DNA of 31,318 nt from the IMG/VR virus record IMGVR_UViG_3300033147_000062, positions 1-31,318 of that record; one strand, given 5' to 3'. Within the stretch, counting starts at the first letter, position 1. Each line of letters starts with the position of its first letter. A model generated the notes under the pieces. The model was given only the letters and a program-made list of their open reading frames with translations. It was not told where the DNA came from and searched no databases. Positions 3-7,744 of the stretch are shown here, piece after piece. Source of the DNA: a virus. The translations under genes were made by a program, and so were the position numbers.

Positions 3-995
3 ATGGTCGAAGCGCGCAAGCTGGAGATCGAAAAGGTGATGAAGCTGGAGAAGCTCCAGCTCGAACTGTTCTTCACGCACCCAGCTGGCAGCCTGTCGCT
101 CGTCGAGCTCAGAGAGAGAACACGGCTCGACCTCGAAGTGACAGGCAACGCCTACTGGGAGATCGTGCGCGATGGCCGCGGTCAGATCAGCATGTTGTCG
201 CACGCGCCGAGCATCGAGATGCGACTTCGTCCGCTCGACGCAGAGTCAGTCGAGGCCGCCGAGCCGCGACGCATCAGCGCAGTGAGCTTCCGAGAGATCA
301 AGATCCGCAAGCGCTACCGCACCTTCGTGCAACGCGTGAACGGCCAAGAGGTGCGCTTCTTCAAAGAGCTAGGCGACCCGCGCCTGGTGTCAGCGGTGAC
401 TGGCATCGCCTACACCAACGACGCCGCGGCAAAGAAGGCAGAGAAAAACTTTCTCCCTGCCACAGAGATGATGCACTTCAGGATCTACTCGCCGCTGAGC
501 GTCTACGGCGTGCCGCGATGGGTGGGCGCTACGCCGGCGGTGCTAGGCACGCGAGCGGCCGAAGAAGTCAACCTGCTCTACTTCGACAACAAGGCGGTGC
601 CACCGTTGGCGATCCTGGTGAGCGGCGGCACGCTAGCGCGCGGAGCCGTCCAGCGGATCAAGAATTACATTCGCGATCACATCAAAGGGCGCGACAACTT
701 TCACAGCATCTTGGTGCTCGAAGCAGAAGGCCGAGCGGCGATCGCTGGCTCGACGCCGCCACGCGTGCGCATCGAGCTAAAGCCGCTCACCGATGCGCAG
801 CAGCAAGACGCGCTCTTCATGAAGTACGACGAGCGCAACACCGAGAAGATCGGCGGCATGTTTCGGATCCCGCGCATCCTTCGCGGCGACGTGCGCGACT
901 TCAATCGTGCGACAGCCGACGCAGCGCTACGCTCGGCAGAGCAACAGGTATTCCAGCCTGAGCGCGTGAAAGTCGACTTCATGGTGGTTACCTGA
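3..995 (+). CDS. Phage portal protein, 5'-partial and frame-broken
   Basis: The portal forms the dodecameric ring at the capsid vertex through which DNA is packaged and to which the connector attaches. The visible 330 residues resemble the PBSX-type portal family. They contain LDLEVTGNAYWEIVRDG near residue 42, a segment on the MHFRIYSPLSVYGVPRW pattern near 155, a stretch around residue 235 where such portals read 'hsilvle', and EQQVFQPERVKVDF near the end. The true N-terminus lies upstream of the window, since the first visible residues already match a position roughly 100 residues into such proteins; the ATG at base 3 is probably internal. The frame ends abruptly at TGA 993-995, right after the FQPER motif. 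A portal-like C-terminal segment follows in a different frame (962-1348), so the gene looks broken by an indel. Family call is strong; the break could be real or a sequence error. Confidence 0.85.
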   Translation: MVEARKLEIEKVMKLEKLQLELFFTHPAGSLSLVELRERTRLDLEVTGNAYWEIVRDGRGQISMLSHAPSIEMRLRPLDAESVEAAEPRRISAVSFREIKIRKRYRTFVQRVNGQEVRFFKELGDPRLVSAVTGIAYTNDAAAKKAEKNFLPATEMMHFRIYSPLSVYGVPRWVGATPAVLGTRAAEEVNLLYFDNKAVPPLAILVSGGTLARGAVQRIKNYIRDHIKGRDNFHSILVLEAEGRAAIAGSTPPRVRIELKPLTDAQQQDALFMKYDERNTEKIGGMFRIPRILRGDVRDFNRATADAALRSAEQQVFQPERVKVDFMVVT

Positions 996-1348
996 CGCCG
1001 GAAGAAGCGCGCGCCATCGCAGGCCCACTCTTCGGCACAGATTTCAAGTCGATCGATCAGCCGTGGACGAAGGTGCCGCCAACGCTCTTCCAGGCCATGC
1101 TGCAGCAAGGCATCGGGCTACCGACGCAGCCGCAGGCGCCAGAGCAGAAGACCGACGACGGCTCGATGGTCGACCGACTGCTCGACATGCGCAACAGGCT
1201 CGAAGCTCGCGCCGACGAAGCTGCTGTGCTGGAGCTCAGCAAGTCGCGCGACGCCGAGCTCGACACCGTGCTGGTCAAGGTTCCCGCGTCAGAGTTTGCC
1301 AAGTGGGTCGAGCTCGGCGCAGCTGGTGATGCCAGTGCGGCACAGTAG
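962..1348 (+). pseudogene. Portal C-terminal segment, displaced into another frame
   Basis: This frame is open from base 962 to TAG 1346-1348 and reads GGYLTPEEARAIAGPLFG from about base 983, followed by DFKSIDQPWTKVPPTLFQ. The 'GYLTPEEAR' pattern is the usual start of the C-terminal part of PBSX-type portals. It lies one frame behind the upstream portal reading, consistent with a net deletion of 3n+1 or insertion of 3n+2 bases near 980-995. Homologues as I remember them carry some 30-40 residues between FQPER and this motif, so a deletion is more likely than a simple indel. The only early starts in this frame are a CTG near 992 and the GTG at 1073, and neither has a good ribosome site, so independent translation is doubtful. 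The end overlaps the next gene by about 20 bp, as expected for the natural portal terminus. Confidence 0.6.
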
Positions 1349-2408
1349 CGTCGACCTGGGCGACGCTCTCGCCGAGCTCGACGCAACTCTCGAGCTCGTC
1401 GGAGTCGCCCAGGTCGAGAAGGCAGGACCGAACCCGCTCAAGCCAAAGGGCTTCGACCAGCTGATCATCGAGCTAGAGCGAGACATACGGCGCGTCGTCG
1501 GCAAGCGCGAGCGCGAAGCCATCGCACGAATGATCCGCGATCTCGATCGCAACTGGTCAGGCATGACAGAGGCGGCAGCCGCAACGGTGATCGCTGCAGC
1601 CGTCGCCAACGTCGGCAAGCTCGGCCCAGTGCTGGCGAAGCCGGTCGGCGAAGTGGTGATGCGATCGTTCGGTGAAACAACGATCGCGAGCAACGCTGCA
1701 GCCGCCACACAATACAACGCGGTTAGCATAATGGGCTCGACCGACCTCGTAGACAATCGCGTCGTGAAGACGGTGCGCACGCGCCAGGCATTCTTCGTGC
1801 GCAACGAGTATGGCGTGCGACAGCAGCGGCTCTCTGCGATGGCGCGCAACATCGTCGCAGACGGAACGGCGAACGGCTTCACATCGAAGGCCATCAGCGA
1901 AACGCTGAGCGCCAGGCTCGGCGCTGCAGGCATCAATCGATCGGTGCACTACTACCGATCGGTCGCCGGAATCTACCAGGCGCGCGCTCGAAGCTACGGG
2001 CTGCTGCGCAGCTTCGCAGACGGCGGCATCGATCGATTTCGCTTCGAGGCCGTGCTCGACAAACAGACGACGGAGCAGTGCCGCTTCATGCACGGCAAGA
2101 CGTTCAGCGTGCCGCGCGCGCTGAAGTCGTTCAACGATGTGACAGGCGCCGGCCCAGAGTCGGTGTATGCGCTACAGCCGTTTATGAACACCGGCCGCGA
2201 CGCCAACGGAAACTCGATCCTGTACTACAGCAAAGGGCAAGGCGGGCCCCGCGTTCAGGTCGCGCGCGTCGACACGCCAGGCGTCGGAGCGGCCGACCGC
2301 CGCGGGGGCTACAGTCGCGCTATGTCGAGCAGTAGGCTAGAGTCAGCAGGCATCACGACCCCGCCGCTTCACGGGCTGTGCAGGTCGACAATTCTCGCAG
2401 AGGTATGA
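1329..2408 (+). CDS. Mu gpF-like head morphogenesis protein (minor capsid)
   Basis: A 359-residue protein directly after the portal, the normal place for the Mu gpF/SPP1 gp7-type minor head protein that associates with the portal during head assembly. The C-terminal half shows the family signature: VLDKQTTEQCRFMHGKTF around residues 241-258 and TPPLHGLCRSTILAEV at the very end, i.e. the conserved D-x-x-T-x-x-C-x-x-x-H-G and P-P-x-H-x-x-C-R pairs. The N-terminal half is helical and Ala-rich. I chose ATG 1329 because it overlaps the portal end by only 20 bp; an in-frame TTG at 1296 would add 11 residues of doubtful value. The stop TGA overlaps the region just before the next start. Confidence 0.82.
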   Translation: MPVRHSSVDLGDALAELDATLELVGVAQVEKAGPNPLKPKGFDQLIIELERDIRRVVGKREREAIARMIRDLDRNWSGMTEAAAATVIAAAVANVGKLGPVLAKPVGEVVMRSFGETTIASNAAAATQYNAVSIMGSTDLVDNRVVKTVRTRQAFFVRNEYGVRQQRLSAMARNIVADGTANGFTSKAISETLSARLGAAGINRSVHYYRSVAGIYQARARSYGLLRSFADGGIDRFRFEAVLDKQTTEQCRFMHGKTFSVPRALKSFNDVTGAGPESVYALQPFMNTGRDANGNSILYYSKGQGGPRVQVARVDTPGVGAADRRGGYSRAMSSSRLESAGITTPPLHGLCRSTILAEV

Positions 2409-3295: not shown

Positions 3296-5671
3296 GTGCC
3301 AGAGCCGCTCGAAAAGAAGAAAAACCGTCCCGGATATGAGGGCGAGGCAGAGCGGCGAGAGCGCAAGCGAGCGCGCGACGCCATCAACGGCGCGATCCGT
3401 TACGGCACCATAAAGAAGGGCCCATGCCGTCGGCAAAACACGGGCCAGGGCGAATGCACCGGCCGGATCATTGCCCACCACTATCGAGGCTACGACAAGG
3501 CCAACGCGCTGAAGGTTCACTGGTACTGCGACCACCACCACACCCAGGTGCACCACGAGCTCGGCGATCGGGCGCACTACAAGAAGGCGACGAGTTCGCC
3601 GACCCCCGCGAGCTTCGTCGAGCTCGTGCGCGCGCTCGACTTCGGCAAGCGGGTGCACGGCCGGCGCTACGTTCACGTCGACGCGCTGAAAGGCACCGAG
3701 CTCGCCGACGTCATCGACGACGCGCTCTCGAAGCATGGGCTCGACCTGCGCGCAGGCGACGGCGACGCCAACGTGATCAAGCTCAGCGAGCGAGAGCCGT
3801 CGCTCAAAGTGTCGCTGCTGACCTATCGCTTCTTCGACGAGCTCGGCTACCCTGAGCTCGCGCGCAGCGTGCAGGTTGACCTGGGGACCGGCGAGCACCA
3901 GGTGCGATCATACGGGCGCGAGAACCCGCCGATCCTGCACCGCAAAGAAGAGCTGCTGCGCAGCGACGATCCGAGGCGCGAGACATTCGAGAAGCTCACC
4001 GCCCAGGCCGAAGCCGCAGGTCTCTTCGACGGCGAGCTGAACACGATCGGCACATTGCGTGGATGGCATAAACGACTCGACGCGAAGGGGCTCAGAGTGG
4101 ACGGCAACAGGCTACTGACGACGACGAAGCAAGAGGCCGTCAAGCGCTGGCTGCAGAAGCGAGAGAACGTCGTCGGCTGGAATACCGCGATCAGCAGAAC
4201 GTCGCCCAGCAAGCCGAGCCGCTGGCTCATCGAGCATGGGCTGCTCAAAGGGCGCGTGCTCGACTATGGCTGCGGCCGCGGCGACCTGTCGAAGGCCGAG
4301 CCACCGATCCCGAATTTGCAAGAGTGGGATCCACACTGGAGCGACAACGAGCCGAGCGGCGTCTTCGACACCGTCGTCTGCAATTACGTGCTTAACGTTC
4401 TGGAGCCTGGCGATGTGAACGCCATCATCGCCGACGTGCGTAGCAAGTTGTCGCCGACCGGCCGCGCGTTCTTCTCAGTGCGGCGCGACATCAAAACCGA
4501 AGGCGACAACGGCCGCGGCGGTCAGCAGCACACCGTCGAGCTCGACCTGCCAACGCTCGTCGAGCTCGCCGGCGCCTTCGCGATCTACGAGCTGCGTGCA
4601 GAGCGCACCACGACCAAGTCGCAGATGCGTGAGCTGATGCGCCTGGCGCTCACGTTCACATCGAAGCAAGACGTCGCCGACAAGCTGGAAGCGACCACCT
4701 TCCAAGACATCGAGCTGCTGATCGATCGGCCGAAGGGCTTCGTGCAGACCGGCGTCGCCGAAGACGGCACCGAGTGGGCTCGAGAGTTTCTCTTCGACAA
4801 CGGCTTCATTCGCGGCACGCGCGGCGGCGACGGCGAAGGGCTCGACGTCTTCGTGGGCAACCAGGCCGACGCACCGATCGCATATTGGATCACGCAGCGC
4901 GACAGCTCTGGCGCCTTCGACGAGTTCAAGGTGATGCTTGGATTCACCAACCAGGCCGACGCGATCGACGCCTACCTGGCGCACGTGCCAGCGGAATTTT
5001 TCGCCGGCGTGCAAGAGGTCACGGTCGAGGCCATGAAGGCGCTGCTCGGCCTAGAGCCGGCGGTGATGATACAACAGGGGGCGACCATGAAGGCACTTGA
5101 CGATCTGCAGGCGGCGGTGACGAAGGGCGACACCAGCGACGAGCTGCGCGAGTCGGTTGCGCGCGAGCTGCTGCTGGAGCTCTACCGAGCTGAGCCCGAA
5201 GCAGTGACGAAGTGCATCGCGGAGATCGCCAGCCAGGCCGGCGCCCCGCTGCCGCTCGAAGAGTACCGCCCGCAGGTGCTCGACCTGGAGCGCGCGCACG
5301 TCTGCAAGGTGGCTGGCGAGGCCGAGGCCGAAGAGCGCACCGTGCTCGGCGTCGTGCTGGAGCCCGACGTGACCGACAGCCAGGGCGACACCTACGACGT
5401 GCGCACCATCAAAGAGACGGCGCACCTGTGGCTGACGGACTATCGCAACATCGGGCTGCAGCACAAGGCGCTCGTCAACCGGCACGTGAAGGTTGTCGAG
5501 AGCTACATCGCACCGATCGACATGGTGATCGAGGGCACCAGCGTGAAGGCTGGCACCTGGCTGATCAAGGTTCGGATCGAAGACGACGAGCTCTGGGCCC
5601 AGGTCAAGAGCGGCGAGCTCACGGGCTTCTCGATCGCCGGCTTCGCGACGCGCAAGCCAGTGGCAGCCTGA
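3296..5671 (+). CDS. Multidomain fusion: HNH-like Zn domain, methyltransferase, InPase-like domain, XkdF-type prohead protease
   Basis: A 791-residue protein in the prohead-protease position. Domains by eye: residues 40-90, an HNH-like Zn domain (C44, C54, H61-H62, C78, HH-x4-HH); 105-272, a segment with VHGRRYVHVDAL, NPPILHRKE and IGTLRGWHKRL, like the C-terminal part of DNA-phosphorothioation-associated putative methyltransferases; 290-435, a SAM methyltransferase (motif I VLDYGCGRGD at 321-330, EWDPHW, NYVLNVLE, FFSVRRDIK, FAIYEL); 475-585, an inorganic-pyrophosphatase-like domain known from phage polyvalent proteins (PKGFVQTG, GDGEGLDVFVG, FDEFKVMLGF); 665-790, an XkdF-type serine protease (LGVVLEPDVTDSQGDTY, H723, VVESYIAP, GTWLIKV, GFSIAGF with S779). 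The family protease alone is under half this size. GTG 3296 is the only plausible start. The protease part is the surest call; the joint function is unknown. Confidence 0.85.
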   Translation: MPEPLEKKKNRPGYEGEAERRERKRARDAINGAIRYGTIKKGPCRRQNTGQGECTGRIIAHHYRGYDKANALKVHWYCDHHHTQVHHELGDRAHYKKATSSPTPASFVELVRALDFGKRVHGRRYVHVDALKGTELADVIDDALSKHGLDLRAGDGDANVIKLSEREPSLKVSLLTYRFFDELGYPELARSVQVDLGTGEHQVRSYGRENPPILHRKEELLRSDDPRRETFEKLTAQAEAAGLFDGELNTIGTLRGWHKRLDAKGLRVDGNRLLTTTKQEAVKRWLQKRENVVGWNTAISRTSPSKPSRWLIEHGLLKGRVLDYGCGRGDLSKAEPPIPNLQEWDPHWSDNEPSGVFDTVVCNYVLNVLEPGDVNAIIADVRSKLSPTGRAFFSVRRDIKTEGDNGRGGQQHTVELDLPTLVELAGAFAIYELRAERTTTKSQMRELMRLALTFTSKQDVADKLEATTFQDIELLIDRPKGFVQTGVAEDGTEWAREFLFDNGFIRGTRGGDGEGLDVFVGNQADAPIAYWITQRDSSGAFDEFKVMLGFTNQADAIDAYLAHVPAEFFAGVQEVTVEAMKALLGLEPAVMIQQGATMKALDDLQAAVTKGDTSDELRESVARELLLELYRAEPEAVTKCIAEIASQAGAPLPLEEYRPQVLDLERAHVCKVAGEAEAEERTVLGVVLEPDVTDSQGDTYDVRTIKETAHLWLTDYRNIGLQHKALVNRHVKVVESYIAPIDMVIEGTSVKAGTWLIKVRIEDDELWAQVKSGELTGFSIAGFATRKPVAA
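5076..5089 (+). promoter_or_regulatory. Likely internal translation start for a free protease form
   Basis: AGGGGG at 5076-5081 stands 5 bases before an in-frame ATG (5087-5089) inside the fusion gene. Starting there gives a 194-residue product (5087-5671) containing the whole XkdF-type protease and nothing of the nuclease, methyltransferase or pyrophosphatase-like domains. This ribosome-site match is better than that of the full-length GTG start at 3296. An in-frame ATG at 5066 is a weaker alternative. Inferred from sequence only. Confidence 0.45.
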
Positions 5672-5731: not shown

Positions 5732-6748
5732 GTGGCACAGGCGGCAATCCAAAAAGCGCAGGAGCGCGAAGCCAAGACGAGGCTCACCGACATCATCACG
5801 CAAGAGGTGTCGCTCGTCGATATGGCCGCAAACCTGCGCCGATTCATTGCGATCAAGCGAGGCGAAATGCAACCAGCAGACGAGACCACGAAGGACGCAC
5901 CAGCCGCACCGCAGCCGCCGGCCGCGGCACAGCCTGCGCCAGATGCGCCACCTGCGCCAACCGAGAAGGCGCCACTCGCTCTGCCGGCTGCCGCGAAGCA
6001 GACCATGATGGACGGGCTCGCAGGCGTGCTCGAACAGCTGACGGCCGTCGCGACCATCGTCGGCGAAGCCGGGGTCGACGAAGCTGCCGCGGTGCCGCCT
6101 GAGCTCGTGCAGATGCTCGGCGATCTGAGCATGATGCTCACCGGCCTGGCCGACCAGTTCGCCGCACCTGCGCCAGCTGGCGAGCCGGAAGGCGAAGCCG
6201 CACCGGCCGAGATGGCAACCGGCGACGAAGACGAAGACGGCGAAGAAGACGAAGAGCAGAAGGCGGCGACCGGCGACGACGAAGAGCAAGAGAAGGCGAA
6301 GGCCGACGACGAAGACGGCGACGTCGCCAAGGCCGGCCGCAAGATCGCAGGCCGTCGCCTGAAGAAGCTCGTCTCGCTGTCGAGCGAGCTCGCCAAGCTG
6401 CTCGAAGAGCTCGGCCACGACCCAGGCAACGTCGCGAAGAGCGCCACTGCTGACGACGACACCGACACCGAGGGCGACGAGCTCGTGGCGAAGGTGGCGA
6501 AGGCCGTGCTCGCCGAGCTCGCGCCGCAGCTCGACGACGTGAAGAAGGCCGTCGTCAACAAGACCGACGCTGAGGCGGCGGCAGTCGCGAAGGCGAACGA
6601 CAAGGTCGCAGAGCTGAGCGCAGCTCTGCGCTCACCAGGCGAGAGCCGGGTGGGCACCAACGAAGGATCGGGCAAAGCGGACGGCACGGTCTGGGCGAAC
6701 GACATGGCAGCCGACGTGGCGAAGCGACGCTTCGCTGAGGCAGGCTAA
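5732..6748 (+). CDS. Acidic scaffold-like head assembly protein
   Basis: A 338-residue protein between the prohead protease and the major capsid gene, the usual place of the scaffold. Residues 25-45 read EVSLVDMAANLRRFIAIKR, a motif seen in proteins next to or fused with XkdF-type proteases. Then come a Pro/Ala-rich stretch (residues ~50-90), a helical segment, a highly acidic run of Asp/Glu (about 160-200), and a helical C-terminal half rich in Lys, Glu and Ala that ends in GTVWANDMAADVAKRRFAEAG. Such charge-rich helical composition fits a scaffold that is degraded by the protease during maturation. The start is GTG 5732, with AGGA shortly upstream and a promoter-like element in front. The scaffold role is inferred from context and composition, not from a recognised domain. 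Confidence 0.65.
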   Translation: MAQAAIQKAQEREAKTRLTDIITQEVSLVDMAANLRRFIAIKRGEMQPADETTKDAPAAPQPPAAAQPAPDAPPAPTEKAPLALPAAAKQTMMDGLAGVLEQLTAVATIVGEAGVDEAAAVPPELVQMLGDLSMMLTGLADQFAAPAPAGEPEGEAAPAEMATGDEDEDGEEDEEQKAATGDDEEQEKAKADDEDGDVAKAGRKIAGRRLKKLVSLSSELAKLLEELGHDPGNVAKSATADDDTDTEGDELVAKVAKAVLAELAPQLDDVKKAVVNKTDAEAAAVAKANDKVAELSAALRSPGESRVGTNEGSGKADGTVWANDMAADVAKRRFAEAG

Positions 6749-6799
6749 GGAGCCGACTAACACAGGCGGCTTCGCAGCCACCACCTACGAGGATTGAAC

Positions 6800-7744
6800 A
6801 TGGCATCGAATCAAACTTTCATCGAGAAGGCCGACCTCGCCGTCTCTGACCTGGTGACCGAAGGCGGCTTCCTGAACGCAGAGCAGGCTCGCGAGTTCTT
6901 CGAGATCATGATCGAAGACTCCGTGCTGATGGGTCTGCTCACCGTCAAGCCCATGACGTCGCCGAGCTTCGAGCTCAGCAAGATGGGCTTCCTGGGTCGC
7001 GTTCTTCGCGGCGCTGTCGAGGGGCAGGGCCTGGGCGATGGCGAGCGCGTTCGTCCGAACCTGGGCAAGACCACGCTCACAACGGTCGAGTTCATCGCCG
7101 AAGTGCGCGTGCCCTACGCGGCAGTCGAAGACAACGTGGCGCAGGGGCAGTTCGTTCCGTTCGTCATGCAGCTGCTCGGCAAGGCAGTCGCGCGCGACAT
7201 CGAAGACATCGTGATCAACGGCGACACCGCCGGCGGCGATCCTGTGCTCGACAAGCTCGACGGCTTCCTGAAGCAGGCGACGTCGCTCGTCGTGACAACC
7301 GGGCAGACTCGTCTGACCAAGTCGATCCTGAAGCAGATGGCGCAGACGATGCCGTCGCAGTTCTTCCGCGGCTCGCAGGGGATGGCCTACATCACCAGCA
7401 AGAATGCGGTGATCGACTACGCCGACTCGCTCGCTTCTCGAGCGACGCCGCTCGGCGACAAGATGCTCGTCGAGGCTGCTGACGCCGAGTACAACTCGAC
7501 GCCGGTCATCGCGATCCCCAAGTTCCCCGAAGACCTGGGCGGCGGCACGAACGAGACAAACGTTCTCTACTCGGAGATCAAGAACATGGTGGTCGGTATC
7601 CAGCGCGACGTGCGCATCGAGACCGATCGCGACATCAGCGCACGAGAGTGGATCATCGTCACTACCGTGCGCTTCGATGCGAAGTTCACGCACGAGCCGG
7701 CGGTGGTCAAGGCGACCGAGGTGCTCGCGAGCGCAGGGCCCTAA
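6800..7744 (+). CDS. Major capsid protein (HK97-fold type)
   Basis: A 314-residue protein that builds the icosahedral shell. It shows the pattern of HK97-fold capsid proteins: an N-terminal helical arm, a central stretch FIAEVRVPYAAVEDNVAQG, then a helix LLGKAVARDIEDIVINGD typical of the spine helix and loop, and a C-terminal part reading VVGIQRDVRIETDRDISA and REWIIVTTVRFDAKFTHEPA. ATG 6800 is chosen because GAGG at 6788-6791 stands 8 bases before it; the TTG at 6794 is inside that spacer. Position after protease and scaffold genes and before small head-surface candidates is exactly that of a capsid gene. Codon use is strongly GC-ending with many CTC, GTC and GAC codons, as expected for a highly expressed gene here. 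Confidence 0.88.
   Translation: MASNQTFIEKADLAVSDLVTEGGFLNAEQAREFFEIMIEDSVLMGLLTVKPMTSPSFELSKMGFLGRVLRGAVEGQGLGDGERVRPNLGKTTLTTVEFIAEVRVPYAAVEDNVAQGQFVPFVMQLLGKAVARDIEDIVINGDTAGGDPVLDKLDGFLKQATSLVVTTGQTRLTKSILKQMAQTMPSQFFRGSQGMAYITSKNAVIDYADSLASRATPLGDKMLVEAADAEYNSTPVIAIPKFPEDLGGGTNETNVLYSEIKNMVVGIQRDVRIETDRDISAREWIIVTTVRFDAKFTHEPAVVKATEVLASAGP

Follow-up and report, generated by a model that had tools for sequence, protein, structure and literature searches.

Phage polyvalent proteins, some of them with an InPase domain, were described by Iyer et al. (2017; PMC5512222), whose main text gives the assemblin-like peptidase a limited distribution and an "always" C-terminal position. DdrB and DarA of P1, which appear in the same text as processed and packaged proteins, provide a precedent for carriage in the head (PMC5512222), and the prohead proteases of giant phages process head proteins that are later ejected and also cut themselves (PMC5694885). 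Enzymes or anti-restriction factors are tied to head proteins, or processed and then packaged, both in DdrB and DarA and in MuF or portal fusions, but these systems have another peptidase (a zincin in DdrB) or another carrier, and no XkdF protease. The latter is found in protease-scaffold proteins (PF14550, phrog_3017; e.g., L035, L038, L112), with the protease at the N-terminus and the scaffold later in the same chain.

The window studied here is the whole of the 31,318-base virus fragment IMGVR_UViG_3300033147_000062, which comes from a myovirus and carries tail sheath and tape measure genes. Upstream of its major capsid gene we observe one open frame combining an HNH-like domain, an NPP domain, a methyltransferase (MTase), an InPase and an XkdF-type protease (Table 1). 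In our assessment, this fusion is rather probably a polyvalent phage protein, whose C-terminal module would be a self-processing prohead-maturation protease bringing enzymes into the head. The protein shares with those described in the main text of Iyer et al. the presence of unrelated enzyme domains in one late-gene product, the InPase, the C-terminal prohead-type peptidase and a proposed processing in the virion.

Table 1. Head-module genes of the window and parts of the fusion protein (residue numbers refer to the fusion).
Feature	Position	Strand	Evidence or remark
Portal protein, truncated at the window start	3..995	+	PF04860, E 6.7e-21
MuF-like minor head protein	1296..2408	+	PF04233 (weak); phrog_13868, E 4e-46
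Pro-rich protein, 302 aa	2378-3286		Between the MuF-like gene and the fusion
Five-part fusion protein, 791 aa, GTG start	3296..5671	+	Single open frame
HNH-like Zn domain, residues 19-91 (C44, C54, H61-H62, C78, H81)	3350..3568	+	phrog_2340
NPP domain, residues 117-276 (NPPILHRKE at 210-218)	3644..4123	+	TIGR04096 second copy; phage homologues
Class I SAM methyltransferase, residues 290-440 (LDYGCGRGD 322-330, WDP 344-346)	4163..4615	+	Pfam, AF2 model, VIA
Phage-type InPase, residues 465-583	4688..5044	+	Pfam PF18823
Linker, residues 590-668, expected place of the release cut	5063..5299	+	Inferred only
XkdF-type prohead protease, residues 676-786 (D694, H723, S779)	5321..5653	+	PF14550
Scaffold, separate gene	5732..6748	+	Matches the C-terminal part of the protease-scaffold family phrog_3017
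Major capsid protein	6794..7744	+	PF05065 and phrog_1623

The initial annotation had read five parts in this order from the letters alone, and its reading is borne out by Pfam, NCBIfam and phrog matches and by a uniform coding signal. GC3 equals 0.79-0.91 in every segment of the gene, GC3 and codon usage are as in the other genes, and by codon usage the given frame scores best of six in all six segments; this uniformity argues against a frameshift or a junk junction in 3296-5671. By the same domain matches the polypeptide contains at least two unrelated enzymatic domains. Its gene lies among portal and capsid late genes, and PF18823 together with a C-terminal PF14550, both above cut-off, belongs to the polyvalent-protein repertoire.

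The late-gene context anticipated for the fusion is likewise confirmed by its position between the MuF-like gene and the scaffold and major capsid genes. The order MuF - fusion - scaffold - capsid is common to the window and L119, L120 and L121, the scaffold gene being syntenic in these three and in L039, and the portal gene is found upstream of this block wherever the contig extends that far. No protease besides that of the fusion was recognized among the scanned ORFs of the head module, so the fusion would be the obvious enzyme, if the phage processes its head. The Pro-rich protein encoded just upstream contains six QKD motifs, most of them in a PQKDP-like setting, and a Pro/Ala-rich protein is found at the matching position in L121; it is possibly an internal-core protein or a protease substrate. 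The search for a cleavage motif, made with a single short QKD-like motif, identified none in the linker: of the three proteins, this motif is present only in the Pro-rich one, being absent from the fusion and the scaffold.

The protease domain matches Peptidase_S78_2/XkdF (PF14550) with E 1.4e-29 and 103.1 bits, well above the gathering score of 24. Its D694, H723 and S779 are invariant among 50 protease relatives, in line with the earlier assignment to the XkdF type with H723 and S779 in place, and catalysis is predicted from the family assignment. The domain, its residues and the position ahead of the capsid gene are the same as in the protease-scaffold proteins, but here the protease ends the protein, the scaffold is the next gene, and the enzymes stand ahead of the protease.

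The InPase domain also scores above its Pfam cut-off (PF18823, E 7.3e-26, 91.1 bits, gathering score 26.8). The conserved residues D512, D517, D542, E543 and K545 are retained, whereas position 502 is occupied by Asn instead of the Tyr observed in 18 of the 18 relatives compared; the activity of the domain is therefore uncertain, and it may be inactive. An InPase-like domain is also present in the portal protein gp19 of Pseudomonas phage Pa193 (PDB 9b41 chain L, residues 639-731), where density for residues 529-765, InPase included, is absent from the virion map (PMC11042391), and hence this region may be disordered or removed.

At the other end of the fusion, the HNH-like domain is recognized by the HNH endonuclease family phrog_2340 (E 3.3e-8, with a 276-residue fragment as the query), with no Pfam HNH match. 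The following NPP domain has stand-alone phage homologues in L011 (L011:4611-5126), L012 and L013 (L013:7866-8489). In phages it is encoded on its own, sometimes adjoining a small methyltransferase gene (L005, L012, L013). NCBIfam TIGR04096 matches the fusion in two partial stretches (E 1.9e-33, 115.9 bits, below the cut-off of 150), which falls short of full-length membership in this family. Plasmid-borne Dnd-associated methyltransferases start with NPP followed by the methyltransferase, some having a second, C-terminal NPP copy, and the window protein is 34-40% identical to them over about 270 residues (98 or 117 to 370). Judged by these alignments, NPP and the MTase behind it form a single natural unit, equivalent to the N-terminal half of TIGR04096-type proteins. 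The likeness to DNA-phosphorothioation-associated methyltransferases, suggested earlier, holds for the succession of NPP and SAM methyltransferase, but the window protein lacks the C-terminal half with the second NPP copy, and its MTase is itself more similar to a small phage family.

AlphaFold (AF2) models have pLDDT 91 for NPP alone and 85 for NPP-MTase. The best matches of NPP alone to PDB folds reach only Foldseek E 0.47 and VIA Z 3.3, which does not prove that the fold is new; in fold searches with the NPP-MTase model the match lists are filled by the methyltransferase half. The domain, for which these searches gave no solved relative, constitutes a link between phage cargo and DNA-phosphorothioation loci.

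The methyltransferase is closest to a stand-alone phage family of approximately 145-180 aa (L021-L025), also found as a C-terminal domain in L010 and L020. In the domain search that had been proposed as a check of the InPase and methyltransferase calls, the InPase passed, as reported above, and the MTase remained just under the cut-off (Methyltransf_23 against residues 318-396, E 5e-6, 26.7 bits, cut-off 27). The AF2 model of the MTase gave a fold match in a VIA search (Z 11.4, rmsd 3.0, 136 aligned residues), the best matches being small-molecule methyltransferases. According to the model, this domain is a generic class I Rossmann methyltransferase fold with motif I (LDYGCGRGD). Its sequence has no [DNS]PP[YFW] motif IV characteristic of amino DNA methyltransferases (N6A/N4C); as the motif is absent and the fold generic, DNA methylation by this domain is unsupported, and the previous proposal that it modifies viral DNA is weakened. 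The same small methyltransferase family is fused to a ParB-like region in another contig (L026:1099-2223).

Scans with the protease yielded many relatives, plus two in bacterial genomes, those of Gallionellaceae (L119) and Polyangiaceae (L120); the whole protein, used first against viral sequences, gave no match, its patterns being too specific, and eight divergent proteases proved too variable, when aligned, to serve as a query. Counts were made on 62 non-redundant relatives from the first protease scans. With N-terminal lengths being upper limits, since the first possible start codon was used, at least 100 residues precede the protease in 49 relatives: in 44 the protease is C-terminal, with a median of approximately 384 residues in front, and in five there is sequence on both sides. 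Seven more have the protease first, followed by at least 90 residues (the protease-scaffold type), and six consist almost of the protease only.

A Pfam scan of 50 proteins (the window fusion and 49 relatives) identified as cargo InPase (11 proteins), D12 N6-adenine (Dam-type) methyltransferase (seven), DNA ligase (five), uracil-DNA glycosylase (UDG; four) and other methyltransferases, as well as single cases of NUDIX with histidine phosphatase, 2H, AAA, a metallo-beta-lactamase fold and GNAT. Among pairs with 40-60% protease identity, N-terminal similarity is absent in 851 of 945, so the cargo is replaced much faster than the protease changes; above 80% identity, the N-terminal parts are similar in every pair. 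Such exchange of enzymes in the slot ahead of the protease suggests a route by which helper enzymes might be brought into the virus head. The initial annotation had proposed that enzymes ride as passengers on a prohead protease, and this idea gains support from the related phages, many of which keep the protease at the C-terminus and vary the enzymes in front of it.

In proteins of about 1,150-1,240 aa (L080:126-3845, L097:119-3841, L079:378-3839 and L151:651-4361; L097 was judged by similarity to L091 and L080) DNA ligase and UDG together precede the capsid protease, which gives a head protein its own repair kit; those of L079 and L080 have a methyltransferase as well.

In a quick protease tree L121 is nearest to the window (support 0.80). 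Its protein of 320 aa is an InPase-protease only, 48% identical to residues 472-790 of the fusion, and is encoded at the same locus, between MuF and the scaffold and capsid genes; accordingly, HNH-NPP-MTase looks like an N-terminal addition. The protein of L120 (339 aa) is also an InPase-protease only.

Under the polyvalent-protein reading, the position of the gene implies that the fusion would be made together with the late head genes. Its protease domain would have to sit in the growing prohead beside the scaffold encoded just downstream, so that HNH-NPP-MTase-InPase would be carried in. At maturation, the protease would cut the scaffold and its own linker, and the enzyme part would stay inside with the DNA and reach the next host along with it. 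There, speculatively, the InPase-type domain might use pyrophosphate or compounds of nucleotide type as substrates, and the HNH domain and the NPP-MTase pair might, equally speculatively, act on nucleic acid or a defense-related target. A more general proposal is put forward tentatively: in tailed phages the XkdF-type protease may be a general self-cleaving loader that takes exchangeable N-terminal cassettes of enzymes (for DNA repair or modification and for nucleotide hydrolysis) into the prohead, the cassettes being cut free and injected with the genome, and NPP may be a cargo module with a fold not seen before, also present at DNA-phosphorothioation loci.

The enzymes could instead act late in the same cell, for instance on nucleotide pools or on DNA as it enters the motor, with the fusion fixing only their place or timing and the cargo degraded together with the protease at maturation and never injected. 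D12 methyltransferase, UDG and DNA ligase could indeed serve DNA being packaged, and prohead proteases are able to cut themselves (PMC5694885); still, InPase, 2H, NUDIX and GNAT match the published polyvalent-protein repertoire proposed as injected, and we consider this scenario unlikely. Production of two proteins from the gene, the full fusion and an InPase-protease from the internal start M444, would mean that HNH-NPP-MTase may not depend on the protease. The first in-frame ATG is codon 444, located at the junction of MTase and InPase, and the nearest relatives, L121 and L120, consist of InPase and protease only. On the other hand, M444 has no clear Shine-Dalgarno site, although neither do most window genes, and cargo starts differ in other relatives; this possibility seems to us quite improbable.

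Less probable still is a neutral or recent fusion of a neighboring enzyme cassette to an InPase-protease gene, with no role in packaging: the five-part order is indeed found in the window alone, but many enzyme types have been fused independently to the same protease end, with its residues invariant, which argues for a function of the fusion. The uniqueness of the order could also point to an assembly chimera of separate genes, and the joins HNH-NPP and MTase-InPase are the only ones that have no outside support. Such an artifact is hardly credible for an in-frame gene with a uniform coding signal: independent contigs and two bacterial genomes also have InPase joined to the protease, and Dnd-type proteins also have NPP joined to MTase.

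The five-part order was observed in no other contig or protein of the collections searched, and literature searches on the fusion revealed nothing beyond Iyer et al. (2017; PMC5512222). The early statement that no described protein has this order fits every search, but the kind of protein had already been described, as the main text of that paper makes clear. Relative to the literature searched, three features are new. One is the HNH-NPP-MTase cargo, of which the main text of Iyer et al. makes no mention. Another is how widely cargo, DNA repair enzymes included, is distributed on XkdF and how fast it is exchanged. The third is the set of arrangements with InPase behind the protease (L064, L066, L129); according to that text the assemblin-like type is limited and always C-terminal, whereas here it is frequent and, in these three, has the InPase after it. 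If the maturation protease indeed brings cargo in and then cuts it free, this would explain enzyme delivery by phages without known injected-protein signals, sequence ahead of XkdF would be a simple marker for early-infection effectors, and the protease might serve as a tag loading proteins into heads.

Upstream of an InPase-protease fusion in L123 we observe a 1085-aa MuF-like protein, much extended at its C-terminus (L123:3-3260), which might serve as another cargo carrier. Several XkdF proteases are labeled "DNA methyltransferase" (records PP496417, KX456208, MN988459; also phrog_1530). Phage proteins with this label were considered as prior fusions and rejected, the shortest one checked, from Roomu-2 (155 codons), being too small; as PP496417 is too short for such a domain, the label looks like a spreading misannotation.
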